IMG/VR virus record: IMGVR_UViG_3300002140_000041
Location: 1-21,941 of that record
Direction: 5' to 3' (one strand)
DNA length: 21,941 bases
From: a virus
Below the pieces are notes generated by a model. The model saw nothing but the letters and a program-made list of their open reading frames with translations. It was not told where the DNA came from and did no database searches. Below, in pieces: positions 1 to 16,360 of this stretch (position 1 is the stretch's first letter; each line of letters begins with the position of its first letter). The position numbers and the translations under genes were made by a program.

Positions 1-3
1 ATT

Positions 4-1571: not shown

Positions 1572-1623
1572 AACTGGCTCTATACAGTAATAACCCTTAG
1601 CAGGGTGAGGAAGGCAATATGTC

Positions 1624-1941: not shown

Positions 1942-1943
1942 CC

Positions 1944-2972: not shown

Positions 2973-3069
2973 TGTGCCACTATGGCATTTCGCAATGGCA
3001 CATCCCTAACCCTATGTTTCTATTAGGAATTATGTATATAGTTGCCATTGTGAGATGCCATGAATGGCA
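2971..3069 (+). repeat. Cluster of six TGCCA/TGGCA sites (candidate integrase arm sites)
   Basis: TGCCA or its complement occurs at 2975, 2983, 2996, 3043, 3056 and 3065, six times in 95 bp. The outer pair forms a perfect 9-bp inverted repeat (GATGTGCCA at 2971-2979, TGGCACATC at 2996-3004) that overlaps the integrase stop. A second pair forms TGCCAT-GA-ATGGCA (3056-3069, with the first T at 3056). There is no T-run, so this is not a standard terminator. Similar GGCACA copies lie on the other side of the tRNA. Integrase or excision-factor arm binding is inferred. Confidence 0.5.
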
Positions 3070-3164
3070 AATTCCATGCTAAGTTATTGTTTTAATTGGA
3101 GAACGGAGGTCTTAAAACCCGCTGTGTCCGCGATGTTAAATGCATCCAAGGTAGCAGCACACAA

Positions 3165-3252
3165 GCGACTGTGGTGGAAACAGGTATACACAACAGACTT
3201 AAAATCTGTCGGGCTAACGCCCATGCGGGTTCGATTCCCGCCAGTCGCACCA
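3165..3252 (+). tRNA. tRNA-Leu (anticodon UAA), CCA encoded; probable attP core
   Basis: An 88-nt class II tRNA with all helices intact: acceptor GCGACTG/CAGTCGC, D-arm GTG/CAC enclosing the conserved GG, anticodon stem ACAGA/TCTGT with loop CTTAAAA (anticodon TAA), long variable arm GGGC-TAAC-GCCC, T-stem GCGGG/CCCGC with TTCGATT loop, and encoded ACCA. The layout closely follows bacterial tRNA-Leu(UAA). It sits 192 bp downstream of the integrase stop in the same orientation. In pelagiphage relatives attP overlaps a host tRNA gene, so this is the likely attachment site. Unusually the whole tRNA is present rather than only its 3' half, so it may also be expressed as a functional phage tRNA. 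The exact crossover point cannot be seen here. Confidence 0.93.
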
Positions 3253-3296
3253 AACCCCCCTCTAAAGAATAGTTTTTATGAGCAAACCAAAGCAAT

Positions 3297-3310
3297 GGTT
3301 GCACATTAAG
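3297..3310 (+). promoter_or_regulatory. GGTTGCACA element, copy A (weak candidate phage promoter)
   Basis: GGTTGCACATTAAG shares the nonamer GGTTGCACA with copies B, C and D, but the following AAGGAAAAG block is degraded to AAGCGAC. It lies between the tRNA and RNA polymerase, 39 bp before copy B. It may be a decayed copy. TTGCAC could alternatively be a sigma-70 -35 box, but no well-spaced -10 follows. Confidence 0.35.
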
Positions 3311-3335
3311 CGACATGAATATACCAATTGGGAAG

Positions 3336-3358
3336 GGTTGCACACAAGGAAAAGAAGC
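3336..3358 (+). promoter_or_regulatory. GGTTGCACA element, copy B (candidate phage RNA polymerase promoter)
   Basis: This 23-bp element matches copy C at 21 of 23 positions: GGTTGCACA, one variable base, AAGGAAAAG, one variable base, AGC. The stretch CACACAAGGA resembles the initiation part of T7-type promoters (CAC, AT-rich bases, then GG), with possible starts at G3348. It lies 176 bp before the RNA polymerase gene, which would give autogenous transcription. No open frame begins suitably behind it, so a ribosome-binding role alone does not explain it. Confidence 0.55.
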
Positions 3359-3390
3359 TGTGAGTGGTAATGTCTTTGCATACCCCGAAA

Positions 3391-3410
3391 TGGCACAAAA
3401 AGGCACAAAA
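3391..3410 (+). repeat. GGCACAAAA direct repeats (candidate second integrase arm)
   Basis: TGGCACAAAA at 3391-3400 and AGGCACAAAA at 3401-3410 are back-to-back copies. The first shares TGGCACA with 2996-3002 on the other side of the tRNA. Sites on both sides of the presumed attP core fit P and P' arms. Evidence is limited to sequence similarity. Confidence 0.35.
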
Positions 3411-3498
3411 GTCTCCTTAGGATCCTAAAGACCTAAAGACAACTAAAGAAACAAAAGACTCCTTAGGATCCAAAAGACCTAAAGAGAACTAAAGAAAC
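3407..3498 (+). repeat. 46-bp tandem repeat (two copies) just upstream of RNA polymerase
   Basis: Copy 1 (3407-3452) and copy 2 (3453-3498) match at 43 of 46 positions. Each contains CCTTAGGATCC and then several CTAAAG words (CCTAAAGA, AACTAAAG). In copy 1 TTAGGATCCTAA (3417-3428) is a perfect 12-bp palindrome. CTAAAG-rich short repeats resemble the CCTAAAG heptamers flanking the T7 terminal repeats, where they are linked to concatemer processing. Here, however, they sit next to gene 1, about 35 bp before its start. The role is unknown; packaging, replication or regulatory binding are all possible. Confidence 0.85.
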
Positions 3499-3533
3499 TA
3501 AATTCGACGTCGTCGATAAAGAAAGAGAAATCT

Positions 3534-6047
3534 ATGGCAACCCAAGATACTCAAGACCTTATGCAACTTCAGATAAGTCTGGAAGAAGGCATGTCAGCAA
3601 GAGGCGTTAAGCGCTTCTGGAAAAACCTAAACGATGCCAAAGAGGCAGGGCGAGAGGATGAGACAAGCTATGGTCAAAAGATCATCAGTGGTCGCATGGA
3701 TGTCTTATCCAAAGCGATAGGCACTTGGTTGTCTGAAGCCAATAGCGGCAAAGGGGGTCGATCTTCTATCGCTGCTGGCTTGCTTAAAGGCGCTGACACA
3801 AGGAAGGTTTCTTTCCTCGCGATGAAGGCGGTTATGAGTTGCGTATCAAAGACCAAAACCATCCAATTTGTTGGTATGGCTATCGGCTCTCTGATCGAAA
3901 CCGAGTACCGCATGCAAGCCGTGAGAGATGTCGAAGAGGCGGGCTACAAGAGGCTCCTAAAGGAGGCTACAAAGCGCGGCAGTACATTTCATAGACGTAT
4001 GTATGCCATTAGGGCTTCAGACGCTGTAGCGGGGTTTTCAGCATGGAGTAAGACAGACCGTCTTCACCTTGGCGTAAAGCTGCTGGACATCATCATGGAG
4101 ACCATAGGTTTGGTTGAAGTTACCCATGTCAAATTGGGTCTCAAAAAGTCCGCCAACATCGTTAGGGCTTTGCCAGAAACTTTAGAGTGGATTGACAAGC
4201 GCAACAACTTTGTTCAACACCTGCGCCCGGTCTACGAACCGATGGTTGTTCAGCCAATGGATTGGACATCGCCGCTAGGTGGTGGCTATGTCAGTAGTTG
4301 TATCGAACCCCTGCGGTTGGTCAAGGTTAAAAACAGCGGCTACTTTGAGGAGCTTAAAAACGCTGATATGCCGATGGTCTACAACGGTGTCAATGCATTG
4401 CAAAGAACGCCGTGGCAGATCAATACGGAGGTCTACGAGGTGATGAACCACCTCTGGGAAACCAGCTCTGACCTTGGGGGTATACCGCCCAAAGATGGCT
4501 TGCCTTTGCCGCCCATACCGCATGACATCGATACGAACGAAGATGCCCGTAAAGCGTTTAGGCGTGACACCGCTAAAGCCCATCAACTGAACGTCTCCTT
4601 GATGGGTCAGCGCATTGGTTTCCAACTGGCTATCGACATCGCCTCACGTTACAAGGGGTTCCGAAAGATAGCATTTCCGTATCAGCTTGATTTCAGAGGC
4701 AGGGTTTACGCTGTGCCGCATCTAAACCCTCAGGGTGCTGACTACCAAAAGGGTCTTTTGCGTTTTGCGAATGGCAAACCATTGGGTTCTGAAGGTTGGA
4801 AGTGGTTAGCAATGCATGGCGCTAACTTGGCAGGTAACGACAAAGTCAGCTTGGAAGACCGTGTTAACTGGGTTCTCGAAAATGAATCAGAGATATGTGC
4901 CATAGCAGCGGATCCGTATGGTGAAAAAGGCTGGGCAAATGAAGTTGGCGGTATGAAGATAGATAAGCCGTGGCAGTTCCTTGCATTTTGCAAAGAGTGG
5001 GCTGGCTATGTAGCGCAGGGTGAGAGCTTTATATCTAAGCTACCTGTGGCGCTAGACGGCTCCGCCAGCGGCATCCAACATTTCTCCGCCATGCTCAAAT
5101 CTGAGACAGGCGCTTGTGTCAACCTGACCCCGGCTGACAAGCCATCAGATGTGTATGGGATGGTCGCAGCGCAGTGTGTTGAGCAAGCGAACCAAGACCT
5201 TGTGAGCGGTACAGAAGATTCATTGATGCATAACGACCTTGGGGTTCCTTACATCCTTGAGGGAACTAAGACGTTAGCTGCTCAGTGGTTGAAGTTTGGA
5301 ATCACCCGCAAGACCTGTAAGCGCCCAGTGATGACACTGAGCTACGGTGCTAAGGAGTTTGGGTTCAAGGATCAGGTCATGGAGGACATCCTGAAGCCAG
5401 CCTACGCAGCCGCAGGTACGGGCGGTGGATTTCCGTTCCAAGCAGATGGGTACAGGGCGGCAATCTACATGGCTAAGGTGTTGTGGAAGTCAGTTGCTAC
5501 AACATTGGTAGCTCCTGTCCAAGCGATGGAATGGTTGCAGGGTGCTGCGTCACTGGTGGTTCAAGAAGGTCTGCCAGTTAGCTGGACGACACCGATTGGG
5601 TTCCCTGTTCAGCAAAGCTACATGAACATGGAAGCTAGGAGAGTAAAGACGCACTTGTCAGGAAAGCTTGTCTACATATCCATGAACGACGAGACGGACT
5701 CACTTGACAAGCGCCGTATGAAGTCAGCCATTTCTCCGAACTTTATCCATTCTTGTGACGCAGCCCATCTACTTAAAACGGTATCGGACGCACGGGATCA
5801 GGGCATTACTAACTTCGCCATGATTCACGATTCGTTCGGCACGTTGGCGGCAGACACTGAGCACTTGTTCAGAATCGTTAGGGAATCATTCGTAGAGATC
5901 TACACACAGGTCAATGTGTTGGACAACTTTCGAATAGAAATTGAGAACCAGTTGAGCGAGGAGTCGAGGCACAAGCTTCAACCACTGCCAGCTTTTGGAA
6001 GTTTGGATATTCAAGGAGTACTTGAGTCCAAATATTGTTTTGCCTAG
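3534..6047 (+). CDS. Single-subunit DNA-dependent RNA polymerase (T7 gp1 family)
   Basis: An 837-residue T7-type RNA polymerase (T7: 883) that transcribes the phage middle and late genes. Visible landmarks: DFRGRVYAVPHLNPQG (T7 DWRGRVYAVSMFNPQG region); motif A LDGSASGIQHFS with catalytic D508 (T7 D537); motif B TRKTCKRPVMTLSYGAKEFGF, with K596 and Y604 matching T7 K631 and Y639; motif C MIHDSFGT with D766 (T7 D812). The C-terminus ends in -FA, as the T7 'foot' does. The region aligned to the T7 specificity loop (between GFPVQQSY and SPNFIHS) differs at the promoter-reading residues, so T7 promoters should not be recognised. The start follows AAAGAGAAA. The gene is intact and ends in TAG. A palindrome and a GGTTGCACA element follow immediately. 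Confidence 0.98.
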   Translation: MATQDTQDLMQLQISLEEGMSARGVKRFWKNLNDAKEAGREDETSYGQKIISGRMDVLSKAIGTWLSEANSGKGGRSSIAAGLLKGADTRKVSFLAMKAVMSCVSKTKTIQFVGMAIGSLIETEYRMQAVRDVEEAGYKRLLKEATKRGSTFHRRMYAIRASDAVAGFSAWSKTDRLHLGVKLLDIIMETIGLVEVTHVKLGLKKSANIVRALPETLEWIDKRNNFVQHLRPVYEPMVVQPMDWTSPLGGGYVSSCIEPLRLVKVKNSGYFEELKNADMPMVYNGVNALQRTPWQINTEVYEVMNHLWETSSDLGGIPPKDGLPLPPIPHDIDTNEDARKAFRRDTAKAHQLNVSLMGQRIGFQLAIDIASRYKGFRKIAFPYQLDFRGRVYAVPHLNPQGADYQKGLLRFANGKPLGSEGWKWLAMHGANLAGNDKVSLEDRVNWVLENESEICAIAADPYGEKGWANEVGGMKIDKPWQFLAFCKEWAGYVAQGESFISKLPVALDGSASGIQHFSAMLKSETGACVNLTPADKPSDVYGMVAAQCVEQANQDLVSGTEDSLMHNDLGVPYILEGTKTLAAQWLKFGITRKTCKRPVMTLSYGAKEFGFKDQVMEDILKPAYAAAGTGGGFPFQADGYRAAIYMAKVLWKSVATTLVAPVQAMEWLQGAASLVVQEGLPVSWTTPIGFPVQQSYMNMEARRVKTHLSGKLVYISMNDETDSLDKRRMKSAISPNFIHSCDAAHLLKTVSDARDQGITNFAMIHDSFGTLAADTEHLFRIVRESFVEIYTQVNVLDNFRIEIENQLSEESRHKLQPLPAFGSLDIQGVLESKYCFA

Positions 6048-6049
6048 TA

Positions 6050-6065
6050 CTTACCACGTGGTAAG
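6050..6065 (+). promoter_or_regulatory. Perfect 16-bp palindrome after the RNA polymerase gene
   Basis: CTTACCACGTGGTAAG is a perfect palindrome with no loop, centred on CACGTG. It starts 3 nt after the RNA polymerase stop and ends 4 nt before promoter-like copy C. With no loop, a dimeric protein-binding site is more likely than an RNA hairpin. It could be an operator acting on the adjacent promoter; the binding protein is unknown. Confidence 0.5.
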
Positions 6066-6069
6066 CAAA

Positions 6070-6092
6070 GGTTGCACATAAGGAAAAGGAGC
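6070..6092 (+). promoter_or_regulatory. GGTTGCACA element, copy C (candidate phage RNA polymerase promoter)
   Basis: This 23-bp element is nearly identical to copy B (21 of 23). The segment CACATAAGGA resembles a T7-type initiation region, with a likely start at G6082 or G6083. It precedes the small gene at 6099 and the ssDNA-binding-protein operon. The 3' part AAAAGGAG also serves as a Shine-Dalgarno sequence for the ATG at 6099, so part of its conservation could be translational. Confidence 0.6.
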
Positions 6093-6098
6093 CAGTAA

Positions 6099-6242
6099 AT
6101 GCACGACACAGAAACCAGCGCTTTGGCGCAAGCAATCTTCACATGGGAATCAGGCCGACACATCAGCCTAGTTCTCGCCACAAAACTAATGGAGGAGGGT
6201 TATGACCTTCCTTCACTTGAAAACCATTATTTCAATCAATGA
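6099..6242 (+). CDS. Small hypothetical protein ahead of the ssDNA-binding protein
   Basis: A 47-residue frame beginning MHDTETSALAQAIFTWESG and ending HYFNQ. Its ATG lies 8 nt behind AAAAGGAG, and its TGA overlaps the next start as ATGA. It therefore has the same coupled architecture as clear genes nearby. It has one predicted helix (TWESGRHISLVLATKLMEEG) and no membrane or catalytic motif. Placement as the first gene after the RNA polymerase recalls the small T7 gene 1.x/2 proteins, but no homology is claimed. Function unknown. Confidence 0.55.
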   Translation: MHDTETSALAQAIFTWESGRHISLVLATKLMEEGYDLPSLENHYFNQ

Positions 6243-6841
6243 CAACAGTAAACAAACGATTCGTAACACCTGCGGGTACTGCGTTATACCCACGCTTAAA
6301 TGAACCAGATTTCAAGTTCAATGAGGCAGGTGAGTACAAAACAGGTCTGGTAATCCCAGCTGCTGATGCTCAGGAATTCATCGGAATCCTTGAGGGTCTA
6401 TACGACGAAGCTCAAGAGACGATCAAGGCAGAACAGCCCGGAAAAAAAATCAAGAAGGCTGACCCACCTTGGACAATCCAAGACGACGGCAGCTTGATGG
6501 TTCGCTTCAAGATGCGCGCCAAGATCAAGACCAAAGCTGGTCGTGAGATGTCGCTCACACCGGTCATCGTAGATGCCAAGGGAACGCCTTGCGACGTTCA
6601 GGTAGGTGGTGGTAGCCGCATCAAGGTTGCGTTCACCACAGCCCCGTATCACACCGCCCTCGTAGGCGCTGGCTTGTCCATGCGACTCCAAGGTGTGCAG
6701 GTTCTCACGTTGTCTCAAGGCGGCGGTATGGACTTGGGCTTCGGTGTTGAAGAGGGCTTCACTGCCCAACCTGAAGTTGCTCAGAAGTCAGCACCAGCAA
6801 AGGCTCCTGCCCGTGATGAAGAAGAAGACGCAGACTTCTAA
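6239..6841 (+). CDS. Single-stranded DNA-binding protein (T7 gp2.5-like)
   Basis: A 200-residue protein (T7 gp2.5: 232) expected to coat ssDNA and contact the polymerase and primase-helicase. The N-terminal 150 residues form a beta-rich OB-like region (FVTPAGTALYPRLNEPDFKF..., then IKVAFTTAPYH... and GLSMRLQGVQVLTL). The tail is Ala/Pro/Lys linker followed by acidic DEEEDADF, ending in phenylalanine exactly as gp2.5 does; that acidic-aromatic tail mediates protein contacts in T7. Its order, RNA polymerase then SSB then endonuclease, is the T7 order. Its end overlaps the endonuclease start by 26 nt. Confidence 0.9.
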   Translation: MTTVNKRFVTPAGTALYPRLNEPDFKFNEAGEYKTGLVIPAADAQEFIGILEGLYDEAQETIKAEQPGKKIKKADPPWTIQDDGSLMVRFKMRAKIKTKAGREMSLTPVIVDAKGTPCDVQVGGGSRIKVAFTTAPYHTALVGAGLSMRLQGVQVLTLSQGGGMDLGFGVEEGFTAQPEVAQKSAPAKAPARDEEEDADF

Positions 6842-7241
6842 GGAGACATTGGAATTCGGGTTCACGTTAGGTTTCCGCAGCGGCTTGGAAGAGTCCGTTG
6901 CGGAATCATTAACAAAGCGTGGTGCGGACTACCTGTACGAACAGGTGGTGCTGCGCTTCACTAAACCCTCTAAGGCATGCCGCTACACACCGGACTTTGT
7001 GTTGGCTAACGGGATCATTGTTGAGACTAAAGGACGCTTCCTGACCGCTGATCGGCAGAAGCACATTTTAGTTAAAGCACAGTATCCCGAACTTGACATC
7101 AGGTTTGTATTCAGTAACAGCAAGACCAAGATTTCCAAGGGATCCAAAACAACATACGCAGACTGGTGCAAAAAGCACGGCTACCAGTTCTCAGATAAAG
7201 ATATTCCCGATTCATGGATCGCGGAAAAGGCACATGGCTAA
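6816..7241 (+). CDS. Endonuclease I, Holliday-junction resolving (T7 gp3-like)
   Basis: A 141-residue protein (T7 gp3: 149) that cleaves branched DNA during replication and helps degrade host DNA. The catalytic set is visible: a Glu in SGLEESVAESL, Asp in YTPDFVL, and Glu and Lys in VETKGRF, matching T7 E20, D55, E65 and K67. The start ATG at 6816 lies inside the SSB tail and gives MKKKTQTSKETLEFG. An upstream in-frame start at 6693 would only add an SSB-shadow sequence. It overlaps the amidase start by 8 nt. Position between SSB and lysozyme is as in T7. Confidence 0.93.
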   Translation: MKKKTQTSKETLEFGFTLGFRSGLEESVAESLTKRGADYLYEQVVLRFTKPSKACRYTPDFVLANGIIVETKGRFLTADRQKHILVKAQYPELDIRFVFSNSKTKISKGSKTTYADWCKKHGYQFSDKDIPDSWIAEKAHG

Positions 7242-7665
7242 ACGTAAAGAAACTAAATATATCGCGGTGCATTGCGCTGCTACTCCTGCCGGGATGGACA
7301 TTGGGGTTAAAGAGATCGACCGCTGGCATCGCCAGAAAGGGTTCCTGAAGGTGGGTTACCACTTCGTTATCCGCCGTACTGGTCAGATCGAACTAGGTCG
7401 AGATGAAGATGAGATCGGCGCACATGTGCAAGGCTACAACGCCGTGTCCATTGGTGTGTGTCTAGTGGGCGGCGTAGATGCAGATGATGTGTCTAAAGCT
7501 GAGAACAACTTTACTAAAGAACAGTTCTCAACGCTGCGAACGCTGCTCGAACGTCTCCAGATTCAATACCCAGATGCGGAAGTCCTAGGACACCGTGACT
7601 TCCCAGACGTTGCCAAGGCTTGTCCATCTTTTGATGTTCGAGCTTGGCTTAAATCAACCAACTAA
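7234..7665 (+). CDS. N-acetylmuramoyl-L-alanine amidase / lysozyme (T7 gp3.5-like)
   Basis: A 143-residue zinc amidase (T7 lysozyme: 151) that cuts peptidoglycan amide bonds for lysis. Zinc and catalytic residues match T7: H13 in YIAVHCAA (T7 H17), Y42 in VGYHF (Y46), H120 in LGHRD (H122), K128 (K128) and C130 (C130). In T7 this protein also binds and inhibits the RNA polymerase; that second role is possible here but not visible in sequence. No signal peptide is present, so it would need the holin at 19256 for access to the wall. The start is the ATG at 7234 within the endonuclease end. A terminator follows 5 nt after the stop. Confidence 0.96.
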   Translation: MAKRKETKYIAVHCAATPAGMDIGVKEIDRWHRQKGFLKVGYHFVIRRTGQIELGRDEDEIGAHVQGYNAVSIGVCLVGGVDADDVSKAENNFTKEQFSTLRTLLERLQIQYPDAEVLGHRDFPDVAKACPSFDVRAWLKSTN

Positions 7666-7670
7666 CAAAC

Positions 7671-7690
7671 GGGGCGCAAGCCCCTTTTTT
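7671..7690 (+). terminator. Rho-independent terminator after the amidase gene
   Basis: GGGGC-GCAA-GCCCC followed by six T residues: a 5-bp GC stem closed by a GNRA-type tetraloop. It would end transcripts of the SSB-endonuclease-amidase group. The T-run ends one base before the primase-helicase ATG at 7692, so primase-helicase expression requires readthrough, or a start further upstream. Confidence 0.85.
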
Positions 7691-7691
7691 C

Positions 7692-9314
7692 ATGGAACAA
7701 ACCGACAGTGACTTCCTACAGCATGAGCCTTGTCCCAGCTGTGGATCAAAGAACAACCTTGCCCGTTACACCGATGGTCACGGCTACTGCTTCGGCTGTC
7801 AGCACCATGAAAAAGGTGACGGGTCAGTACCAACAATTCAGAAAGCAAAGATGAGTAGCGATTTCATAAGCGGCGACTTCGCTGCATTAAGCAAGAGAAG
7901 AATTACGGAAGAGACCTGTCGCAAGTTTGGTTACCGAGTTGGCATGACAGAGGATGGACGCAAGGTTCAACTCGCACCCTATTTCGATAAGGACGGTGCG
8001 ATGGTTGCCCAGAAGGTACGCACTGCATCCAAGGATTTCTGGGCTATTGGAAAGCTCAGTAGCGGACAGTTGTTTGGTCAACGTCTGTGGGCAGCAGGTG
8101 GTAAACGGATCATCGTCTGCGAAGGTGAGATAGACGCGATGTCAGCCTCTCAGGCGCAGGGAAATAAGTGGGCGACAGTGTCAGTACCCACGGGATCCTC
8201 AGGCGCTAAGAAAGCCTTAGCTGCGAACCTGGAGTACCTTGAGTCGTTCAATGAAGTGGTGTTGATGTTTGACCAAGACACCGCTGGGCAGGAGGCTGCC
8301 GCTGAGTGTGTGACTTTGTTCACACCCGGCAAGGCGAAGGTTGCAACCCTGCCACTTAAAGATGCCAACGACATGCTGGTAGCTCGTAGAGAAGATGAGC
8401 TTGTCAGGGCAATCTGGGAAGCAAAGACCTACAGACCCGATGGCATCGTCACGGTTAGTGATGTGCTTGAGCAAATCAGTAAGCCATTAGAAACCGGGTT
8501 CCCATGGTTCCTCGAAACGCTTACCAAGCTGACCCACGGTAGAAGGCTTACGGAGGTGTACGGGGTGGGCGCAGGTACGGGTGTCGGAAAAACCGACTTC
8601 ATTACCCAGCAGATTGCCTACGACGTTCAGGTGCTGAAGATGAAGGTAGGCGTGGTGTTCCTTGAGCAACAGCCTAGCGAGACAGTCAAGCGGATCAGCG
8701 GGAAGATCGCAGGTAAGCGCTTCCATGTACCCGGCGAGGACTGGACAACAGAGGAACTCATAAGCACCGCCAAGGGGCTTGAGGAATACCTGTACATGTA
8801 CAACTCGTTTGGTGAAACAGACTGGGCAGTTGTCAAAGCAAAGATCAGATACCTCGCGGTGTCTGAGGGTGTCCAACTCTTCTATGTGGATCACCTGACA
8901 GCCATGGCGAACACAGAATCCGAACGCGAAAGTTTGGAAAAAATTATGAAGGAACTTGCGGGTTTAGCTAATGCCCTACAGGTCGTAATCACCTTCGTTT
9001 CCCACCTATCTACACCATCAGAAGGTCGCAGCCATGAGGAAGGCGGCAGGGTCTCTATCAAAAACTTCAAGGGCAGTAGATCCATAGGCTTCTGGAGTTA
9101 CTTCATGTTCGGTCTTGAGAGAGACCAGCAACACGAAGATCCATTAATCAGTTCAACAACAACGTTTCGCGTTCTCAAGGATCGATTCACAGGCCAAGCA
9201 ACTGGCTCATTGATCTACCTTGCCTACGACCCAGTGACTGGTCGGCTATCCGAGACAGTCAAACCTATATCTAAATCGGAGTTCAAAGATGAAACAGTAC
9301 AACAAGATTTCTAA
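7692..9314 (+). CDS. DNA primase-helicase (T7 gp4-like)
   Basis: A 540-residue bifunctional protein (T7 gp4: 566). The N-terminal zinc-binding primase domain has C14-x2-C17 and C33-x2-C36. The TOPRIM region shows CEGEIDAMSA and LMFDQDTAGQEAA (acidic metal ligands). The helicase domain has Walker A GAGTGVGKTDF with K300, then VVFLEQQPSE, a Walker B-like LFYVDHLTAM and a VSHLSTP segment as in DnaB-type hexameric helicases. It unwinds DNA and makes RNA primers for the polymerase at 9503. The start directly abuts a terminator T-run and lacks a good ribosome binding site. MEQTDSDFLQHEPCPSC matches the family N-terminus, so this start is kept. The end overlaps the next gene by 26 nt. Confidence 0.96.
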   Translation: MEQTDSDFLQHEPCPSCGSKNNLARYTDGHGYCFGCQHHEKGDGSVPTIQKAKMSSDFISGDFAALSKRRITEETCRKFGYRVGMTEDGRKVQLAPYFDKDGAMVAQKVRTASKDFWAIGKLSSGQLFGQRLWAAGGKRIIVCEGEIDAMSASQAQGNKWATVSVPTGSSGAKKALAANLEYLESFNEVVLMFDQDTAGQEAAAECVTLFTPGKAKVATLPLKDANDMLVARREDELVRAIWEAKTYRPDGIVTVSDVLEQISKPLETGFPWFLETLTKLTHGRRLTEVYGVGAGTGVGKTDFITQQIAYDVQVLKMKVGVVFLEQQPSETVKRISGKIAGKRFHVPGEDWTTEELISTAKGLEEYLYMYNSFGETDWAVVKAKIRYLAVSEGVQLFYVDHLTAMANTESERESLEKIMKELAGLANALQVVITFVSHLSTPSEGRSHEEGGRVSIKNFKGSRSIGFWSYFMFGLERDQQHEDPLISSTTTFRVLKDRFTGQATGSLIYLAYDPVTGRLSETVKPISKSEFKDETVQQDF

Positions 9315-9516
9315 TCAACAACTAGCAGTTGTGACCCACATGACTTTGGCTGGTTCAATCACCCGCCGCGAAGCTTGGGTTGACCACGGCATCGCAAACC
9401 TCACCGCCGTTATCTCAAAGCTGCGTATAGCTGATTTCCATATCCGTATGCGACGACGCATCCACCCTGTCACGCTTCACAGCTACGCAGAGTACTCACT
9501 AGATGCTACTGTTTGA
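9289..9516 (+). CDS. Small winged-helix/HTH DNA-binding-like protein, paralogue 1
   Basis: A 75-residue basic protein with a compact helix-turn-helix pattern: helix QQLAVVTHMTLAG, then SITRREAWVDHGIANLTAVISKLR, the usual 'G-x-hT-x-x-EA-...-I-x-x-LR' plan of small phage HTH proteins, then a basic segment RMRRRIHP. It starts behind GGAG, overlaps the primase-helicase by 26 nt, and overlaps the DNA polymerase start by 14 nt, so it is coupled to replication genes. A similar protein follows the polymerase at 11290. DNA binding is inferred from the pattern; its target is unknown. Confidence 0.65.
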   Translation: MKQYNKISNQQLAVVTHMTLAGSITRREAWVDHGIANLTAVISKLRIADFHIRMRRRIHPVTLHSYAEYSLDATV

Positions 9517-11290
9517 CATAGAGACCAACGGACTATTACCTGAAGTAAGCACTCTTCACTGCATCGCAACCTACGATACACAGACATCTGAAGCGCGGAT
9601 CTACTCCTCGCTTGCTGGTGATCTAGAGACCGGAATCAGAAGCATCATGGATGCCCCCCTCATTGGGGGACACAACGTGATCAAGTACGACATCCCCGTT
9701 CTCCAGAAACTGTACCCCCACACATTCAAGATTGACCCAGCAAAGGTGTTCGACACACTGATCGCTGCACGTCTGATATGGACAAACATCAAAGACACCG
9801 ACGCGGGTTTACTCCGCCAAGGTAAGCTGCCCGGCAAACGTTTCGGAAGCTTCGCACTAGAAGCATTCGGCTACAGGCTGGGCGAGATGAAGGGAGAGTA
9901 TTCGGGAGGTTGGGAAACAGTTAACCAAGACATGATTGACTACTGTATTCAGGACGTTCAGGTCACCACAAAACTCTGGGAAAAGATTAAGTCAAAGAAC
10001 TATCCGAAGACCGCACTCACTCTTGAGCATGAAGTCGCATGGCTGATTGCACAGCAGGAGCGCAACGGCTTTTGTTTTGATGAAGCCGCAGCAGTAACTC
10101 TATTTACAAAGTTACTGAAGCGTCAGTCAGAGCTACAGCTTGAGCTTGAAACGTTCTTCGGATCTTGGGAGTCCCCACTCCCTGACTTCATTCCAAAGCG
10201 CGCTAACAAAACCAAAGGTTACCTCGCAGGGGTTCCGGTCAAGCGCAGTCAAACAATCGTATTCAATCCACAGTCACGTCTGCATATTGCTGACAGGCTC
10301 ATGGCTTTGTACGGCTGGACACCGACTGTGTTTACCGATGGTGGATCAGTGAAGGTGGACGAGACCGTCATCGGCTCACTGACATACCCGCCATGCCCAA
10401 TTCTTAACGAGTACCTAACGGTCGAGAAGCGTTTATCACAACTCGCAAACGGCAAACAAGCTTGGATGCGTGTAGTTAACAAAGGAAAAATACATGGCTC
10501 AGTTACGACGAACGGCGCTGTTACTGGGAGGGCGACCCATAGCTATCCCAATATTAGCCAAGTCCCAAACAGCGGCTCTCCTTATGGCTCCGAGTGTCGC
10601 TCCCTCTTCACCGTCCCCGAAGGTTGGTTCCTTGTTGGCAGCGACCAATCCGGCCTCGAATTGAGATGTCTTGCCCACTTCCTTGCAAGGTTGGACGGTG
10701 GGCAATACGCAGAGGCTGTGGTCAACGGGGATGTCCACACGCTTAACCAACATGCAGCAGGTCTAGCAACCAGAGCTGAGGCTAAGACATTTATTTATGC
10801 TTGGTTGTACGGCGGCGGTGATGAGTTGGTCGGCAACATCGTTGGTGGTGGGGACAAGGAAGGACGCAAGATAAAGTCTCGCTTCCTGAAGGCTAACCCA
10901 TCCATCAAAGAACTCCGCAATGCTGTTGTGTTCAAGGCAGAGAACGAGAAGAAGTTAATCGGTTTGGATGGCAGAACCATTCACATACGTGCAGCCTTCA
11001 GTTCTCTCAACGCACTCCTTCAGGGTGCTGGTGCAGTCCTCTGTAAGAAGTGGATCGTGCTGGTTGAGCGAGAGCTTAGTAAGACCCTGAAGCACGGGTG
11101 GGACGGCGACTACGTGCTGTGTGCTTGGTCACACGATGAGACCCAGCACGGCTGTAGGACTCTAGAGATCGCCGAGTACGTAGCCAAGGTCTGCTGCGAA
11201 CAAGCAGTCCAAGCAGGACTGGCATTTAACTTCCGATGCGCCACGGCTGGCGAAGCAAAGATCGGAAAGAACTGGGCGGAGACACATTGA
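9503..11290 (+). CDS. DNA polymerase, family A with 3'-5' exonuclease (T7 gp5-like)
   Basis: A 595-residue replicative polymerase (T7 gp5: 704). Exonuclease: Exo I D5-I-E7, Exo II HNVIKYD63, Exo III YCIQD151, all acidic residues present, so proofreading should be active. Polymerase: motif A SDQSGLELR with D381 (T7 D475), motif B RAEAKTFIYAWLYGGG, and motif C SHDET with D545 (T7 D654). The distance from Exo III to motif A is 230 residues against about 301 in T7. The shortfall is about the size of the 76-residue T7 thioredoxin-binding insertion, so that domain is probably absent. The start at 9503 matches the family N-terminus. It is flanked by two small HTH genes. Confidence 0.97.
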   Translation: MLLFDIETNGLLPEVSTLHCIATYDTQTSEARIYSSLAGDLETGIRSIMDAPLIGGHNVIKYDIPVLQKLYPHTFKIDPAKVFDTLIAARLIWTNIKDTDAGLLRQGKLPGKRFGSFALEAFGYRLGEMKGEYSGGWETVNQDMIDYCIQDVQVTTKLWEKIKSKNYPKTALTLEHEVAWLIAQQERNGFCFDEAAAVTLFTKLLKRQSELQLELETFFGSWESPLPDFIPKRANKTKGYLAGVPVKRSQTIVFNPQSRLHIADRLMALYGWTPTVFTDGGSVKVDETVIGSLTYPPCPILNEYLTVEKRLSQLANGKQAWMRVVNKGKIHGSVTTNGAVTGRATHSYPNISQVPNSGSPYGSECRSLFTVPEGWFLVGSDQSGLELRCLAHFLARLDGGQYAEAVVNGDVHTLNQHAAGLATRAEAKTFIYAWLYGGGDELVGNIVGGGDKEGRKIKSRFLKANPSIKELRNAVVFKAENEKKLIGLDGRTIHIRAAFSSLNALLQGAGAVLCKKWIVLVERELSKTLKHGWDGDYVLCAWSHDETQHGCRTLEIAEYVAKVCCEQAVQAGLAFNFRCATAGEAKIGKNWAETH

Positions 11291-11493
11291 TGTCAATACC
11301 CGAAGTTCTAAAGCAAGCATACCTAACCCCCTTCACAGTCCAGTCCAACTTTGCACGACGCAACGCGGTTCACATCGCGCTGCTGGCAAGCACTGGTTAC
11401 CTGACAACTGTGGAGGGGAAGGAGCTATTTGGAAAGACATGGCGCTGTACTGCGCTTGCACTCACAACCCTTAAAAACGAGAACTACCTTTGA
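11290..11493 (+). CDS. Small winged-helix/HTH DNA-binding-like protein, paralogue 2
   Basis: A 67-residue protein whose ATG overlaps the DNA polymerase stop by one base (TGATG). From residue 25, AVHIALLASTGYLTTVEGKELFG and then TALALTTLKNENYL follow the same plan as the gene at 9289 (hydrophobic helix, G-x-hT, acidic/E position, hydrophobic recognition helix, L-x-x-x-hydrophobic end), but with few identical residues. It lacks the basic C-terminal tail of the other copy. It probably binds DNA, but its function is unknown. Alternatively it is an unrelated small helical protein, since the similarity is modest. Confidence 0.6.
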   Translation: MSIPEVLKQAYLTPFTVQSNFARRNAVHIALLASTGYLTTVEGKELFGKTWRCTALALTTLKNENYL

Positions 11494-11840
11494 CTAACTT
11501 AACAAGCATAAAAATATTTGGTAAACCCTTTGAAGTGAAGTTCCTTGAGGACGACTTTGAATCCAACACCCTTGGGCTGTGTAGATCTGTAGGCAACTCA
11601 ATCACCATTCTTGAGGGCATGACACCAGCAGAAGAGTTGGACACCGTCCTCCACGAATTACTGCATGCGATAAGCCATGTGATGAGTGTTCCGTTCCCTA
11701 ACCAAGAAGCCGAGGAGGTCGTAGTTCACATGATTGGGACAGGTTTAGCCGGTGTGTTCTTGGACAACCCAAGTCTGCTTGCGTACATCGCACAGACCAT
11801 CAAGAAAGTACAGGCTCCCCGTGTCAACAAAAAGAAATAA
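11490..11840 (+). CDS. Putative small zinc metallopeptidase-like protein (HExxH)
   Basis: A 116-residue protein starting at TTG in the overlap with the preceding gene (TTGA). It contains LDTVLHELLHAISHVM with the zincin signature H55-E-L-L-H59 inside a helix, and a following helix EAEEVVVHMIGTGLAGVF whose E74-E76 could supply a third zinc ligand, as in minimal gluzincin/ImmA-like folds. The beginning (IKIFGKPFEVKF) looks like a beta-hairpin. No signal peptide or transmembrane segment, so it would act in the cytoplasm. Small HExxH proteins occur in phage replication regions, but their substrates are mostly unknown. The catalytic role is inferred only from the motif. Confidence 0.65.
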   Translation: MTNLTSIKIFGKPFEVKFLEDDFESNTLGLCRSVGNSITILEGMTPAEELDTVLHELLHAISHVMSVPFPNQEAEEVVVHMIGTGLAGVFLDNPSLLAYIAQTIKKVQAPRVNKKK

Positions 11841-12015
11841 GTGCACCCTGTGTACCGATACCTTCAGCCTAAAAGATGAAGGTGGGATCCAAGCTGAGTT
11901 TGGTATCCGACCCGTCACCTTCTGCCAGACATGCACCATCTCATTAATCAAGATGGTTGACTTGCTGTTGGAGGGGGACGACGAGGAAGTACCAGAGGGT
12001 ACGGTTTACCAATGA
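11821..12015 (+). CDS. Small two-CxxC (zinc-ribbon-like) protein
   Basis: A 64-residue frame from a GTG at 11821, with C8-x2-C11 and C35-x2-C38 separated by 23 residues, the spacing of a zinc ribbon or knuckle pair, then a hydrophobic helix SLIKMVDLLLEG and an acidic tail GDDEEVPEGTVYQ. It overlaps the upstream gene by 20 nt and the thyX start by ATGA. GTG is chosen because it is the closest start before the first cysteine; earlier in-frame starts would only repeat the shadow of the previous gene. The ribosome binding site is weak. Function unknown; nucleic-acid or protein binding is a guess. Confidence 0.6.
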   Translation: MSTKRNKCTLCTDTFSLKDEGGIQAEFGIRPVTFCQTCTISLIKMVDLLLEGDDEEVPEGTVYQ

Positions 12016-12656
12016 TTGTCAGTGCACCAAAAGTCCAGTTCCTAGACAAGCTTGGTACAGACCTGACTATCGTGAACGCTGCCCGTGTGAGCTTTGAGAA
12101 AGAGTCCGAGCTAGAGAACGGGTTCCTAAAGCTATCAGACGAGAAGCTGCTCCGCTACTTAGCTCTGCACAACCACACGTCACCCTTCAACCATGCGTTC
12201 CTACAGTTCCGTGTGACCGCACCGCTCTTTGTTGCACGTCAGTTGGTCAAGCACAAGTTCCTCGTATGGAACGAAGTGTCACGCCGCTACGTCGATACAG
12301 AGCCAGACATCTACATCCCAAAGGTGTGGAGAAAACGTGCAGCCAATGTCAAGCAGGGCAGTAGTGACCAGCCAGCAGACCTTGGTAGTTCATCACCAAC
12401 CAATGCGGTGCTTCAACTCTTGATTGAGTTCGACGCATTGCTTGAGCGTGGTGTGTGTCCTGAGCAAGCCCGGATGATCCTCCCCCAGAACATGATGACC
12501 TCTTGGTACTGGAGTGGATCGCTTGGAGCCTTCACTGACATGGTCAACCTAAGACTTGGTGAGGGCGCACAAGAAGAAGCTGGCGACGTTGCCCGTCTTA
12601 TCAAAACCCATATCGAAGCTGCGTTCCCCGTCGCTTCTAAATACCTTATCAAATGA
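12012..12656 (+). CDS. thyX: FAD-dependent thymidylate synthase ThyX
   Basis: A 214-residue flavin-dependent thymidylate synthase that methylates dUMP to dTMP using methylenetetrahydrofolate, NADPH and FAD. The ThyX signature RHR-x7-S appears as K80-H-K-x7-S90 within KHKFLVWNEVSRRYV; the NEVSRRY part is typical. The N-terminal NAARVSFEKES segment and the later PQNMMTSWYWSGSLGAFTDMVNLR region (dUMP/FAD contacts) also fit. The K for R substitutions keep charge and are seen in phage versions, as far as I recall. It supplies dTTP alongside the ribonucleotide reductase at 13584. Its start overlaps the previous stop, and its end overlaps the exonuclease start (ATGA). Confidence 0.95.
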   Translation: MIVSAPKVQFLDKLGTDLTIVNAARVSFEKESELENGFLKLSDEKLLRYLALHNHTSPFNHAFLQFRVTAPLFVARQLVKHKFLVWNEVSRRYVDTEPDIYIPKVWRKRAANVKQGSSDQPADLGSSSPTNAVLQLLIEFDALLERGVCPEQARMILPQNMMTSWYWSGSLGAFTDMVNLRLGEGAQEEAGDVARLIKTHIEAAFPVASKYLIK

Positions 12657-13405
12657 CAACAACAACAATTACAGGGTTGGTCGATGCCGACATCATCGCC
12701 TATCAAGCAGCCGCAGCAGTAGAGCAACCCTTTGATTGGGGTAACGGTCTGTGGACTCTCCATGCTTTTGAGAATGAAGCTATCGCCCATCTTGAGAACG
12801 CCATCACAACCATCAAGGAAGTGACAGGTGTAAGTAACTTACTGATGGCACTGACCAGTATCAACAACTGGCGTGTGGATGTACTACCTACGTACAAGAT
12901 GAACCGGAAGAAGACTCGTAAGCCGATCCTCTTGCCGTTCCTGCGTCAGTACCTTGTAGACAACTACACCACGTTAGCTATCCCACGTCTTGAGGGTGAC
13001 GACATCCTTGGGATCCTATCGACAACTCATGCACCTGCGTTGATCATCAGCCTCGACAAGGATCTGAAGACAGTGCCGGGTGACCACTACCACCTGACCA
13101 CCCGTGAGTTGTCACATGTCAGCGAAGACGAAGCTAACTACAACCACTTCTTCCAGACCCTGACAGGTGATACGACCGATGGTTACACAGGGTGTCCGGG
13201 CATCGGCCCAGTCAGTGCAGCAAGGTTACTCGAAGGTCTTTCTTACGAAGACATGTGGGCTGTGATCGTTAAGGCATTTGCCAAAGCAAAGCTTCCTGAA
13301 TCAGCAGCCATCCAACAAGCAAGAGTCGCACGTATCTGCCGCGCCTCTGACTTCAACCAAATAACCCAAGAAGTAATCCTATGGAATCCACCACATATCA
13401 GGTAG
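12653..13405 (+). CDS. 5'-3' exonuclease (T7 gp6-like, FEN/PIN-like family)
   Basis: A 250-residue exonuclease that removes RNA primers and degrades host DNA in T7-type phages. Metal-binding clusters are visible: LVD11-A-D13 near the N-terminus, LEGDDILG with E114, D116 and D117, SLD135-K-D137, and D173 and D176 in GDTTDGYTG. It is followed by the helix-hairpin-helix (H3TH) CPGIGPVSAARLL at 181-193. Order after DNA polymerase is as in T7 gene 6. The start overlaps thyX by 4 nt. The C-terminus overlaps the next gene by 25 nt. Confidence 0.94.
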   Translation: MTTTTITGLVDADIIAYQAAAAVEQPFDWGNGLWTLHAFENEAIAHLENAITTIKEVTGVSNLLMALTSINNWRVDVLPTYKMNRKKTRKPILLPFLRQYLVDNYTTLAIPRLEGDDILGILSTTHAPALIISLDKDLKTVPGDHYHLTTRELSHVSEDEANYNHFFQTLTGDTTDGYTGCPGIGPVSAARLLEGLSYEDMWAVIVKAFAKAKLPESAAIQQARVARICRASDFNQITQEVILWNPPHIR

Positions 13406-13596
13406 GCGGCTCTCACTACAACGACAAAGACAAAGCCATGCAGCCGTGGCTAATCATTGAAGCGTGGGAACTCGACTTCTGGCAAGGCAACGCACTTAAA
13501 TATCTCCTTCGCTACCCATACAAGGGTGGTGTTGAGGATCTACGCAAGTGCAAACACTACATCGAATACCTCATTGAACGCGAATGCAACAAATAA
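13381..13596 (+). CDS. DUF3310 family protein
   Basis: A 71-residue protein with the full DUF3310 pattern: GGSHYNDKDKAMQPWLIIEAW at the N-terminus, then DFWQGNALKYLLRYPYKGGVEDLRKCKHYIEYLIE. The family (sometimes annotated 'nucleotide kinase' without proof) is common in T7-like phages near nucleotide-metabolism genes. Here it sits between the exonuclease and the ribonucleotide reductase, overlapping both. It is small, soluble and helical, with no nucleotide-binding P-loop, so a kinase role is not supported. Biochemical function unknown. Confidence 0.88.
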   Translation: MESTTYQVGGSHYNDKDKAMQPWLIIEAWELDFWQGNALKYLLRYPYKGGVEDLRKCKHYIEYLIERECNK

Positions 13597-15557
13597 CAAA
13601 CACACCATCTCTCCGCGCACAAGTAATCACACGTCGCACATATAACCGACCGCTTATAGAAGGCGGCTTTGAATCTTGGGAACAAACAGTAGACCGTGTT
13701 ATGGAACATCAAGCATGGTTATGGACACGAGCCAAACCTGCTAATGATTTCTGGAAAAGCAGTCAGCTTGATGAACTAGATGAACTACGCACCCTTATGC
13801 TGGAACGTAAGGTGTTGACATCCGGTCGCACCCTGTGGCTAGGGGGCACTGAGGTGGCTAAGAAGCGTGAGGCAAGCCAGTTTAACTGTAGCTTCACAAA
13901 CGTAGAGACAGTGATGGACTGCGTGGATACCCTTTGGTTATTGCTGCAAGGCTGTGGTGTAGGCTTCCGACCCATTGTTGGTCAGTTGACTGGATACCAG
14001 AAACCAATCCCTAAGCTAACTGTTAAGCGCAGTGAACGTACCGCCAAAGGAGGTGTGGCACATAACGAGGAGACATTTGATGCAGCAACCGGAGTGTGGA
14101 CAATCAAGGTTGGCGACAGTGCCGAAGCTTGGGCAAAGTCCATCGGTAAGCTGGTCGCTCATAAGTTTCCCGCCCGTGAACTTGTACTCGATTTCTCCGA
14201 GATCCGACCAGCTGGCGATAGGCTTGCTGGGTACGGCTGGATAAGCTCAGGTGACGCTTCGCTGTGCAAGGCATACACAGCTATACATAAGCTGTTGAAC
14301 CGCCGTGCAGGGTCTCTGTTGACACGCATGAACATCCTCGACTTAGTCAACTGGATGGGTACTGTACTGTCGTCACGCCGTAGCGCTGAGATCGCCTTGT
14401 TTACTTTCGGTGAAGATGAATGGGAGCAGTTCGCTGTTGCTAAGAAAGACTTCTGGATTGCCAACGAACAACGCGCTCAGTCCAACAACTCTCTGGTGTT
14501 CAACACTAAGCCTTTGAAGACAGAGCTTGAGAAGATCTTTGGTTTGATGGTTGCCTCAGGTGGCAGCGAACCCGGCTTTATTAATGGACAAGCAGCAACC
14601 AAACGTGCGCCATGGTTCAAGGGTTCTAACCCATGCGTTGAGATCTTGTTGGGAAACAAATCGTTCTGCAACTTGACCGAGATAGACCTGAATAAGTTTC
14701 ATGGTGACAGTGCTGGACTGCGTCGTGCGGTTGAGATTGCAGCCCGTGCTAACTACCGCCAGACCTGCGTGAACCTTCGCGACGGTATCTTGCAAGAAGC
14801 ATGGCACATGAACAACGACTTCCTGCGTTTGTGTGGTGTGGGCTTGACTGGTATAGCTACCCGTCCAGACCTACAAGCCTATGACTATGCAGAACTACAA
14901 CGCACAGCGACCAGTGCTGCTTATGCAATGGCGGATGAGCTTGGAACCCCACGTCCAAAGAACATCACGACCGTCAAGCCAAGCGGTACATTGAGCAAGA
15001 TCATGGACACAACAGAAGGTGTGCATAAGCCATTGGGCAAGTACATCATCAACAACGTTGTCTTCAGCAAGTTTGATTTAGTGGTTCCAAAGTTGCGCGG
15101 CGCTGGCTACAAAGTCTTTGACCATCCGTTTGATAAAGAGTCAGTCTTAGTTGCACTGCCTGTCAAGTGGGACACGGTTGAGTTTGATGTCAACAAGGGC
15201 ATGGAAGTGAACCTTGAGTCAGCCATTGATCAGCTGGAGCGTTACAAAATGCTGATGACCAACTGGTGTCAACAGAACGTATCGGCAACCATTAGCTATG
15301 ACGCAGACGAAGTGCCTGTCATTGTGGATTGGTTACTGGACAACTGGGATAACTACGTCGGTGTCAGCTTCCTGTTCCGCAACGACCCAACCAAGACCGC
15401 TGCCGACCTTGGCTACCCATACCTGCCACAGGAGGTGGTTACCAAAGAGGTGTACGAAAAGTACGTTGCCAACATTGTTGACTTCGAGCTAGACGAGACC
15501 ACCGTGTCAGACACGTTAGACGATGACTGTGCCACTGGCGCATGTCCTATCCGCTAA
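13584..15557 (+). CDS. nrdJ: Adenosylcobalamin-dependent (class II) ribonucleotide reductase
   Basis: A 657-residue monomeric-type class II ribonucleotide reductase, making deoxyribonucleotides from ribonucleotides with a B12-generated radical. Active-site spacing matches the Lactobacillus leichmannii enzyme: C102 in QFNCSFTN, C351 and E353 in SNPCVEI, C362 in SFCNLTEI (C351/E353/C362 spacing equals C408/E410/C419). The C-terminal redox pair is C649-x4-C654 in CATGACPIR, spaced like C731/C736. No class I small subunit or class III activase is nearby, which supports class II. The host or environment must supply cobalamin. It overlaps the DUF3310 gene by 13 nt and is followed by a strong hairpin. 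Such genes are known auxiliary metabolic genes of aquatic podoviruses. Confidence 0.95.
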   Translation: MQQITNTPSLRAQVITRRTYNRPLIEGGFESWEQTVDRVMEHQAWLWTRAKPANDFWKSSQLDELDELRTLMLERKVLTSGRTLWLGGTEVAKKREASQFNCSFTNVETVMDCVDTLWLLLQGCGVGFRPIVGQLTGYQKPIPKLTVKRSERTAKGGVAHNEETFDAATGVWTIKVGDSAEAWAKSIGKLVAHKFPARELVLDFSEIRPAGDRLAGYGWISSGDASLCKAYTAIHKLLNRRAGSLLTRMNILDLVNWMGTVLSSRRSAEIALFTFGEDEWEQFAVAKKDFWIANEQRAQSNNSLVFNTKPLKTELEKIFGLMVASGGSEPGFINGQAATKRAPWFKGSNPCVEILLGNKSFCNLTEIDLNKFHGDSAGLRRAVEIAARANYRQTCVNLRDGILQEAWHMNNDFLRLCGVGLTGIATRPDLQAYDYAELQRTATSAAYAMADELGTPRPKNITTVKPSGTLSKIMDTTEGVHKPLGKYIINNVVFSKFDLVVPKLRGAGYKVFDHPFDKESVLVALPVKWDTVEFDVNKGMEVNLESAIDQLERYKMLMTNWCQQNVSATISYDADEVPVIVDWLLDNWDNYVGVSFLFRNDPTKTAADLGYPYLPQEVVTKEVYEKYVANIVDFELDETTVSDTLDDDCATGACPIR

Positions 15558-15569
15558 CTTAAACCAACA

Positions 15570-15605
15570 GCACCCTGTCTATAGGCTAGTCCTAGGACGG
15601 GGTGC
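15570..15605 (+). terminator. Strong stem-loop between ribonucleotide reductase and PhoH genes
   Basis: GCACCCTGTC (15570-15579) pairs with GACGGGGTGC (15596-15605) over 10 bp (one G-U). Inside, TAGG/CCTA (15582-15585 and 15591-15594) adds a further helix around CTAGT. It is very stable, but the only T-rich stretch (TCACTTTT) begins about 5 nt downstream, so it is not a textbook intrinsic terminator. It could be a terminator for the phage polymerase, an RNase III site or a 3'-end protector for the reductase transcript. Confidence 0.55.
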
Positions 15606-15635
15606 GCCCATCACTTTTACATTGAGCAATTGCAT

Positions 15636-16340
15636 ATGACTAAGAACCGCCAACGGGATAGTGATCAGAAGCCCGGTCGCTACGTCGCTGACAAATTTAA
15701 AACACGCACCGTACACCTAGAAGCCAAGACTGATCGGCAGCAGGAGTACATCGAAGCGCTGGAAGATTCAGAGCAAGTAATTGTTACCGGCAGTGCTGGT
15801 ACAGGTAAGACATACATTGCAGCCTCATGGGCAGCAAAGATGTTCCTAGAGAACAAGATCAAGAAGATCATCCTCACACGTCCTAACGTTGCCTCAGGTC
15901 GCTCACTGGGCTTCTTTCCGGGAACGATGGAAGAGAAGATGGCTCCTTGGGTTATCCCGTTTACCGACGTGATCACCAAGCATTTGGGAACCGCTGCATA
16001 CGAGATAGCTGTGAAGCGTCGCAACATTGAGATCGTCCCATTTGAGGTCATGCGTGGTCGCACATTCGATGACTCATTCGTGATCCTAGACGAAGGTCAG
16101 AACACAACTCCCAGCGAGATGAAGATGTTCTTGACACGTATCGGAGACGGCACTCGCATCGTTATCAACGGTGACGTTCGCCAGACAGATCTGAAGACAA
16201 CTTCAGGTCTAAAGACAATCATCGACATGGCTTACCACCAACGAATGGATGTGCCTCACATTGAATTTACTTCAGACGACATCGTGCGTTCAGGTATCTG
16301 TGGCATGTGGGTACGGGCGTTCGATGCGGTAGGTATTTAG
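15636..16340 (+). CDS. phoH: PhoH-like P-loop ATPase
   Basis: A 234-residue PhoH family ATPase with Walker A VTGSAGTGKTYIA, then a LTRPNVASGRSLGFFPGTMEEKM segment characteristic of PhoH, Walker B VILDEGQN, and a later sensor-like INGDVRQTDL. phoH is a frequent auxiliary gene in marine and freshwater phages; its role (RNA metabolism or phosphate stress) is unsettled. The ATG at 15636 is chosen over a TTG two codons earlier. The ribosome binding site is weak (TTGAGC). The last G of its TAG stop is the first base of promoter-like copy D, so the structural operon starts right at its end. Confidence 0.94.
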   Translation: MTKNRQRDSDQKPGRYVADKFKTRTVHLEAKTDRQQEYIEALEDSEQVIVTGSAGTGKTYIAASWAAKMFLENKIKKIILTRPNVASGRSLGFFPGTMEEKMAPWVIPFTDVITKHLGTAAYEIAVKRRNIEIVPFEVMRGRTFDDSFVILDEGQNTTPSEMKMFLTRIGDGTRIVINGDVRQTDLKTTSGLKTIIDMAYHQRMDVPHIEFTSDDIVRSGICGMWVRAFDAVGI

Positions 16341-16355
16341 GTTGCACATTAGGAG
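16340..16355 (+). promoter_or_regulatory. GGTTGCACA element, copy D (candidate promoter of the structural genes)
   Basis: GGTTGCACATTAGGAG overlaps the PhoH stop codon. CACATTAGGAGG resembles the T7 late-promoter core CACTATAGGGAG (8 of 12). If transcription starts at G16352, the leader to the ATG at 16361 is only 9 nt, and the same GGAGG acts as Shine-Dalgarno. It stands at the boundary between metabolic and virion genes. Confidence 0.55.
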
Positions 16356-16360
16356 GCATC

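Follow-up and report, generated by a model that had tools for sequence, protein, structure and literature searches.

Phage promoters served by a phage-encoded, single-subunit RNA polymerase (RNAP) have been mapped by cappable-seq in LUZ100, at places comparable to those described below (given in parts of PMC10134795). Of its eight annotated promoters, one (phi1) precedes the RNAP gene, two (phi2 and phi3) follow it, and phi4 and phi5 lie beyond these; phi6 and phi7 are close to the head genes, and phi8 is at the right end. The promoter ahead of the RNAP gene is called peculiar in the same parts of the paper. Promoter recognition by T7 RNAP involves a loop (residues 739–770) in which N748 contacts -10/-11, R756 contacts -9, and Q758 contacts -8 (sections of PMC5937735). 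The RNAPs of T7 and four Pseudomonas phages show nearly full orthogonality (parts of PMC10138996), and metagenomic RNAPs have been mined, with their promoters sought via a CACTA core (portions of PMC13029058). Here, we analyze IMG/VR virus record IMGVR_UViG_3300002140_000041 (21,941 bases, 49.5% GC; hereafter, the window, meaning this whole stretch of DNA), which is T7-like by gene content, based on family and profile matches, and carries repeated copies of the element GGTTGCACA. Judged by sequence, placement, conservation, and covariation, these elements are very probably promoters of the RNAP encoded in the window (3534..6047, + strand; Pfam PF00940, 2.7e-104; PF14700, 2e-16), with the roles proposed below.

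Copies and placement of the element

The element GGTTGCACA occurs five times in the window (at 2111, 3297, 3336, 6070, and 16340), always on the + strand, whereas the mean over 100 dinucleotide shuffles was 0.31 copies and none of them held more than 3. The preliminary description had listed four of these copies, with a chance expectation well under one, agreement of the 3336 and 6070 copies at 21 of 23 positions, and placement before the RNAP, replication, and structural genes. All of this was reproduced, the placement by distances to start codons, but the list was incomplete and lacked the copy at 2111 in the integrase reading frame. Positions were assigned in the register of the annotated T7 promoter phi1.1A (CAC, four bases, +1), in which GGTTGCAC spans -12 to -5 and is followed by four bases and then +1, predicted at 2123, 3309, 3348, 6082, and 16352. 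GG thus occupies -12/-11: it opens the recognised stretch rather than the transcript, contrary to the earlier description of T7-type promoters as beginning with GG. With CAC at -7 to -5, four bases, and a purine at +1, the window elements have the form of T7-class promoters, and their same-strand copies at module starts, in a genome that encodes a T7-like RNAP, also agree with that class.

The 3336 and 6070 copies, which by their sequence are near-certain promoters, share their element across the RNAP gene. The former (-17 to +6, 3331..3353, + strand) has its +1 at 186 nt 5' of the RNAP ATG, and the latter (-17 to +6, 6065..6087, + strand), between the RNAP and replication genes, has its +1 at 35 nt beyond the RNAP stop and 17 nt ahead of an ATG at 6099. 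The 3297 copy (3292..3314, + strand), whose core is intact, is a probable second, weaker promoter 39 bp 5' of the 3336 copy; its +1 is A in the window and G in the relative G001. Another probable promoter, ahead of the portal/head genes, is the 16340 copy (16335..16357, + strand); here GGTTGCACA, at 16340, begins with the final base of the phoH stop codon, and the +1 is 9 nt ahead of an ATG, a placement comparable to that of a copy at 19070 in Bordetella phage vB_BbrP_BB8 (hereafter, BB8). The remaining copy (2106..2128, + strand) lies within the integrase coding sequence, unlike those at module starts, and may be either a promoter or a coding coincidence.

The copies were scored with a matrix built from 18 sites of other phages, which were chosen for carrying the word [AG]GTTGC[AC]CA beside an RNAP gene; the matrix is therefore independent of the window genome, not of the core word. 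Scores above the maximum of all 100 shuffles were obtained for the 6070 (27.6, the best in the window), 3336 (22.1), and 2111 (20.9) copies. As proof of a promoter, the 2111 copy was set aside: its codons AAG GTT GCA are kept in the relative G003, yet a three-codon run of this kind is not unusual, because 127 of the 259 identical integrase residues keep their codon in G003. A stretch in the primase gene (GGTTGCCCAGAAGG at 8003) was likewise rejected as a site, its score being reached by 63 of 100 shuffles; similar stretches recur at a similar distance from the RNAP gene in some relatives. In G001, a 42.9-kb relative, the matrix also detects a distal site at 40332 (score 15.6, 7 of 100 shuffles). 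At this site (oriented) and at a distal promoter of L008 (1566), the predicted transcript opens in a hairpin, GGAGGCATAAG...CTTATGCTTCC (-16.2 and -17.2 kcal/mol, respectively), and shorter hairpins at +1 were seen at the distal sites of L044, L048, L050, L055, L063, and L074.

Conservation in relatives

A search of relatives for the motif, suggested in the preliminary description, found the element at matching places in diverged relatives. BB8 (Gyeongsanvirus), whose RNAP is the nearest to that of the window among the named phages of the collection searched (55% identical), has GGTTGCAC at 7058 (5' of the RNAP gene, 114 nt from its start), 9751 (3' of the RNAP gene), 19070 (at the end of a small gene, which it overlaps, ahead of the connector gene), and 40995 (beyond the terminase gene). 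All of these copies continue as A[AT][AT][AT]GGATA and point with transcription, and no GGTTGCAC was found on the opposite strand of BB8. A term search for 'promoter' gave no match in the main text of the BB8 paper (PMC7073063, main text only). In G003, the RNAP of which is 77% identical, the element stands both before and after the RNAP gene (3' copy at 10116), and the tandem pair on the 5' side (7154/7193) keeps the 39-bp spacing of the window.

For a broader comparison, 89 RNAPs were assembled: the best 80 of 292 viral-contig loci, L015, a Pseudomonas putida prophage (L039), the window, and six named phages. The prophage was kept from a single-protein scan of genome contigs, from which L040 (36% over 83 residues) was dropped. 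Clustering at 80% identity gave 44 clusters. RNAPs with K748-L756-Y758 (KLY, T7 numbering), as in the window, go with GGTTGCAC: RGTTGC[AC]CA, counted if it lay up to 400 nt on the 5' side or up to 300 nt on the 3' side of the RNAP match, was present in 9 of the 10 clusters with a KLY member (one large cluster of mixed signatures was counted as KLY) versus 2 of the 34 others (Fisher p 7e-7). The KLY cluster without the word is L077, which has S746, and the two non-KLY clusters with it hold the near-variants KIF and KLW/MVY.

We also ran a flank test in which no motif was supplied. This test takes the best 20-mer pair shared between the two flanks of the RNAP gene (400 nt on the 5' side, 300 nt on the 3' side), with a light anchor on -7 to -1 and the start, and none on -12 to -8. 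After 12 of the 89 RNAPs were dropped (no usable flanks or missing loop residues), 77 loci were tested, and the shared element exceeded the 99% threshold set by 462 shuffled pairs in 63 of them. An element on both sides of the RNAP gene is therefore common among relatives of the window RNAP (many of these loci are close kin), a frequency that describes these relatives rather than the whole family. A stricter cross-locus null, which 36 of the 77 loci pass, was replaced by dinucleotide shuffles because phages share the CACAATTGGATA part, which contaminates that null. The register in this test was automatic, and the calls for L103 and for LUZ100 and its kin, which differ from the choice by eye, were left as called.

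Covariation between loop residues and promoter bases

The 63 loci were collapsed to 34 representatives, and 32 loop positions were compared with 13 promoter positions using 500 permutations that ignore kinship. The strongest couplings were 748/-11 (z 12.7), 758/-8 (z 10.5), and 748/-10 (z 8.7), followed by 748/-12 (z 6.6) and 758/-9 (z 5.7), and at a lower level by 746/-7 (z 4.3) and 756/-9 (z 3.5). In T7 RNAP, residue 746 contacts -7. The anchor of the flank test favours C at -7, which works against the 746/-7 coupling. The strongest couplings, 748/-11 and 758/-8, are contacts known from T7 RNAP (sections of PMC5937735). Among the representatives, Y758 goes with G at -8 in 11 of 11 cases and K/R758 with C in 10 of 11; at -11, K/R748 goes with G (17 of 18), E748 with C (5 of 5), and D748 with C (4 of 6). 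R/K746 is paired with C at -7 in 29 of 30, L756 with T at -9 in 9 of 10, and R756 with C in 7 of 8. The bases at -11 to -8 of the window element fit its loop residues as expected of the T7 class, based on the 748/-11 and 758/-8 covariation, and the earlier proposal that specificity would differ with the loop is borne out most clearly at these two couplings.

Kinship was taken into account by comparing independent pairs in a phylogeny of the 63 RNAPs, calculated without the loop. For residue 758 (Y, F, W, or M versus K or R), -8 differed in the expected direction in 7 of 7 independent pairs (p 0.016), and when K/R was set against all other residues, with C at -8, an average of 6.9 of 8 pairs went the same way. 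For residue 748 (K/R versus E, D, I, L, Q, or S) and -11, an average of 5.8 of 6 pairs went the same way (median p 0.031), whereas K/R versus E/D alone left 3 pairs, too few for significance. Mismatched controls (758/-11, 758/-7, 748/-8, 748/-7, and 748/-3) showed no such trend in independent pairs. L049 (KKLY) and L059 (RKVK) are 83% identical outside the loop and have GGTTGCACAATTGG versus GGTTCCACAATTGG 3' of the RNAP gene; the site 5' of the RNAP gene in L059 is more divergent. L107, which has the T3 residues RDRQ, carries ACCCTCAC, the letters also present in the annotated promoter phi1.05 of T3, and L015, also RDRQ, gave no significant flank pair. Separately, the promoters of L010 and L014 read CACAATTAGAAG, which suggests A, not G, at +1.

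Taken jointly, we think it likely that in environmental T7-like phages the RNAP promoter can be read from a few loop residues, has switched repeatedly together with the loop, and commonly includes a self-promoter. Under the code proposed in this joint reading, residue 758 would specify G at -8 when Y, F, or M, C when K or R, and A when V or T, and residue 748 would specify G at -11 when K or R, C when E, and A when I or L. R or K at 746 would go with C at -7, and L at 756 mostly with T and R mostly with C at -9. Self-promoters 5' of the RNAP gene would be widespread within this section of the family and would make the RNAP autocatalytic.

Alternative explanations

The preliminary description had itself raised the alternative that the AAGGA/GGAG half is conserved as a ribosome-binding site and that the remainder is chance. 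The 6070 and 16340 copies, whose +1 positions are 17 and 9 nt before a start codon, contain AGGA or GGAGG and would suit such a site. This explanation fails because the distance to the RNAP start is 237 nt for the 3297 copy, 198 nt for the 3336 copy, and 114 nt for the BB8 copy, all of them upstream, and because the GGTTGCAC half (-12 to -5) covaries with RNAP residues; we regard it as very improbable. It is even harder to credit that the elements are host sigma-70 promoters with TTGCAC as the -35 box, which shares TTG with TTGACA (3 of 6 positions): a sigma-70 scan of 1–6300 (the 16340 region lies outside it) found none on the + strand and a total of 2 sites, both on the - strand, versus 8.3 expected in shuffles, and a host promoter is not expected to follow the loop of a phage polymerase. 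Operators bound by the phage regulator (1624–1941), rather than promoters, would account for sites that flank the RNAP gene, where operators were proposed (parts of PMC10134795), and dyads adjoin some of the promoters. However, GGTTGCAC is asymmetric, its copies in the window and BB8 all point with transcription, it covaries with RNAP loop residues and is separate from the dyads, and BB8 has the same element although its gene 18 (5637–5915, beside the integrase gene) has no match to the window regulator. An operator role for the elements themselves is accordingly very unlikely.

Several observations weigh against reading the elements as promoters of the phage RNAP. The starts in the window phage and BB8 are predictions from sequence. 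The matrix scores of the 3297 (14.3) and 16340 (13.2) copies were matched by 8 and 15 of 100 shuffles, respectively; the earlier identification of the copies as phage promoters is supported by the relatives and the covariation, but not as promoters of equal strength, these two being weaker than 3336 and 6070. No significant flank pair was found in 14 of the 77 loci, T7, T3, and SP6 among them. Couplings of similar size occur at 750/-3 (z 4.9) and 768/-2 (z 4.5), and we know of no contact that they fit. Exceptions to the code include RSLK, which pairs K758 with A at -8, Q758 (G once, T once), and D748 (at -11, C 4 times, A once, T once). By independent pairs, neither 746/-7 (4 pairs, of which 2.0 agreed in direction and 2.0 showed no difference) nor 756/-9 (4 and 6 pairs) was significant. 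A search of public viral contigs with GGTTGCACAWWAGGAWA gave 24 stretches, including L005 and L006, which are near-identical relatives of the window; among the other 22, a related RNAP was encoded in L120 only (within the fetched DNA), and the motif alone is therefore not diagnostic.

Proposed mechanism

We propose that host transcription would first give a little RNAP, the specificity loop of which (residues 703–717, 5640..5684, + strand, from an alignment to T7, T3, and SP6 RNAP; R746, K748, L756, and Y758 in T7 numbering) would read GGTTG at -12 to -8, with K748 at -11/-10, L756 at -9, and Y758 at -8. CAC at -7 to -5, four mostly A/T melting bases, and a start at GGA would make up the rest of the promoter. 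The RNAP would then start at 3348, and probably at 3309 too, amplifying its own transcription, while the start at 6082, after the RNAP gene, would drive the replication genes and that at 16352 the head genes. A MarR-like regulator, an integrase, and a tRNA-Leu are found directly upstream, and for this reason the self-activating promoter probably constitutes the lytic arm of a switch between lysis and lysogeny, in line with the proposal made for LUZ100. The regulator may repress the promoter 5' of the RNAP gene, an idea that is a hypothesis in the LUZ100 paper too (parts of PMC10134795).

Neighboring genes, dyads, and repeats

The putative transcriptional regulator (1624..1941, + strand; phrog_9665, 1.7e-11) matches the LUZ100 MarR-like regulator weakly (22% identity over 92 aa, E 3e-8 in a single comparison); a Pfam search gave no family, and a contig scan for its relatives gave just two contigs, both near-identical to the window. 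It is followed by a tyrosine integrase (1944..2972, + strand; Pfam PF00589, 3.1e-17) and a tRNA-Leu (TAA) (3165..3252, + strand; ARAGORN), which is possibly the attachment-site tRNA. With regulator and integrase adjoining the RNAP gene and the tRNA near the integrase, the locus has the layout of a LUZ100-type temperate T7-like phage. To the right of the RNAP gene are a T7-type SSB, an endonuclease, an exonuclease, ribonucleotide reductase, and PhoH, and then the late genes (connector, scaffold, holin, major head, and tail). The window is probably a fragment of a larger genome, since close relatives measure 37–43 kb. As side observations, the ribonucleotide reductase (13584–15557), with PhoH adjoining, matches the B12-dependent insertion domain PF21995 in this T7-like phage, and a reading frame near the left end (125–553) has a repetitive GGDVGGNVDGNV-type stretch.

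A perfect 16-bp dyad, CTTACCACGTGGTAAG (6050..6065, + strand), abuts the 6070 promoter and is a candidate operator or hairpin. Near-perfect dyads are enriched upstream of promoters located downstream of the RNAP gene: arms with 7/7 pairs occur at 5 of 42 downstream promoters (two being the window and a near-identical relative), 0 of 41 upstream promoters, and 0.1% of random places. The RNAP leader of the window contains two tandem 46-bp repeats rich in CCTAAAG/CTAAAG (3399..3490, + strand). Among the RNAP leaders of the 34 representatives, 10 contain CCTAAAG (shuffle mean 0.6, maximum 3) and 15 contain CTAAAG (shuffle mean 2.4, maximum 8), the latter word being present in 2 of the 34 downstream-promoter leaders.

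Significance and comparison with known systems

What is new here would be a promoter–polymerase pair with a new specificity, of a kind already known as the phage RNAP promoter. Among the papers listed by full-text literature searches, neither this promoter nor such a residue–base code was found described, which is not proof of novelty because most subscription papers lie outside its coverage. Of wider interest are the natural residue-to-base code and the self-promoter 5' of the RNAP gene, which looks common among relatives. Dozens of natural, possibly orthogonal pairs could be read from contigs without transcript data, and similar polymerases in which loop and promoter differ together (L049/L059) make the specificity change testable with natural sequences. 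The locus is also relevant to the way in which lytic transcription is ignited in temperate T7-like phages.

Compared to the annotated promoters T7 phi1.1A and T3 phi1.05, the window element shares CAC at -7 to -5, four bases, and a purine start, whereas -10 to -8 is TTG instead of ACT in T7 and CCT in T3. SP6 promoters resemble it at -12 to -10 (GGT). A further difference from the T7/T3/SP6 class is that the window RNAP gene is itself preceded by a copy. LUZ100 is similar to the window in being T7-like with temperate features (MarR-like regulator, integrase, and tRNA-Leu) and in having promoters that flank the RNAP gene and lie near structural genes. Its promoter letters differ (ATTACCACACAGNNNTGG in 7 of 8 annotated sites), as expected for another specificity, and its RNAP is 40% identical, with D748-R756-L758. 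BB8 differs in an RNAP of 55% identity and a genome of 59% GC versus 49.5% in the window, and it shares with the window GGTTGCACAWWWGGATA at four places, K748-L756-Y758, and a tyrosine integrase ahead of the RNAP gene.

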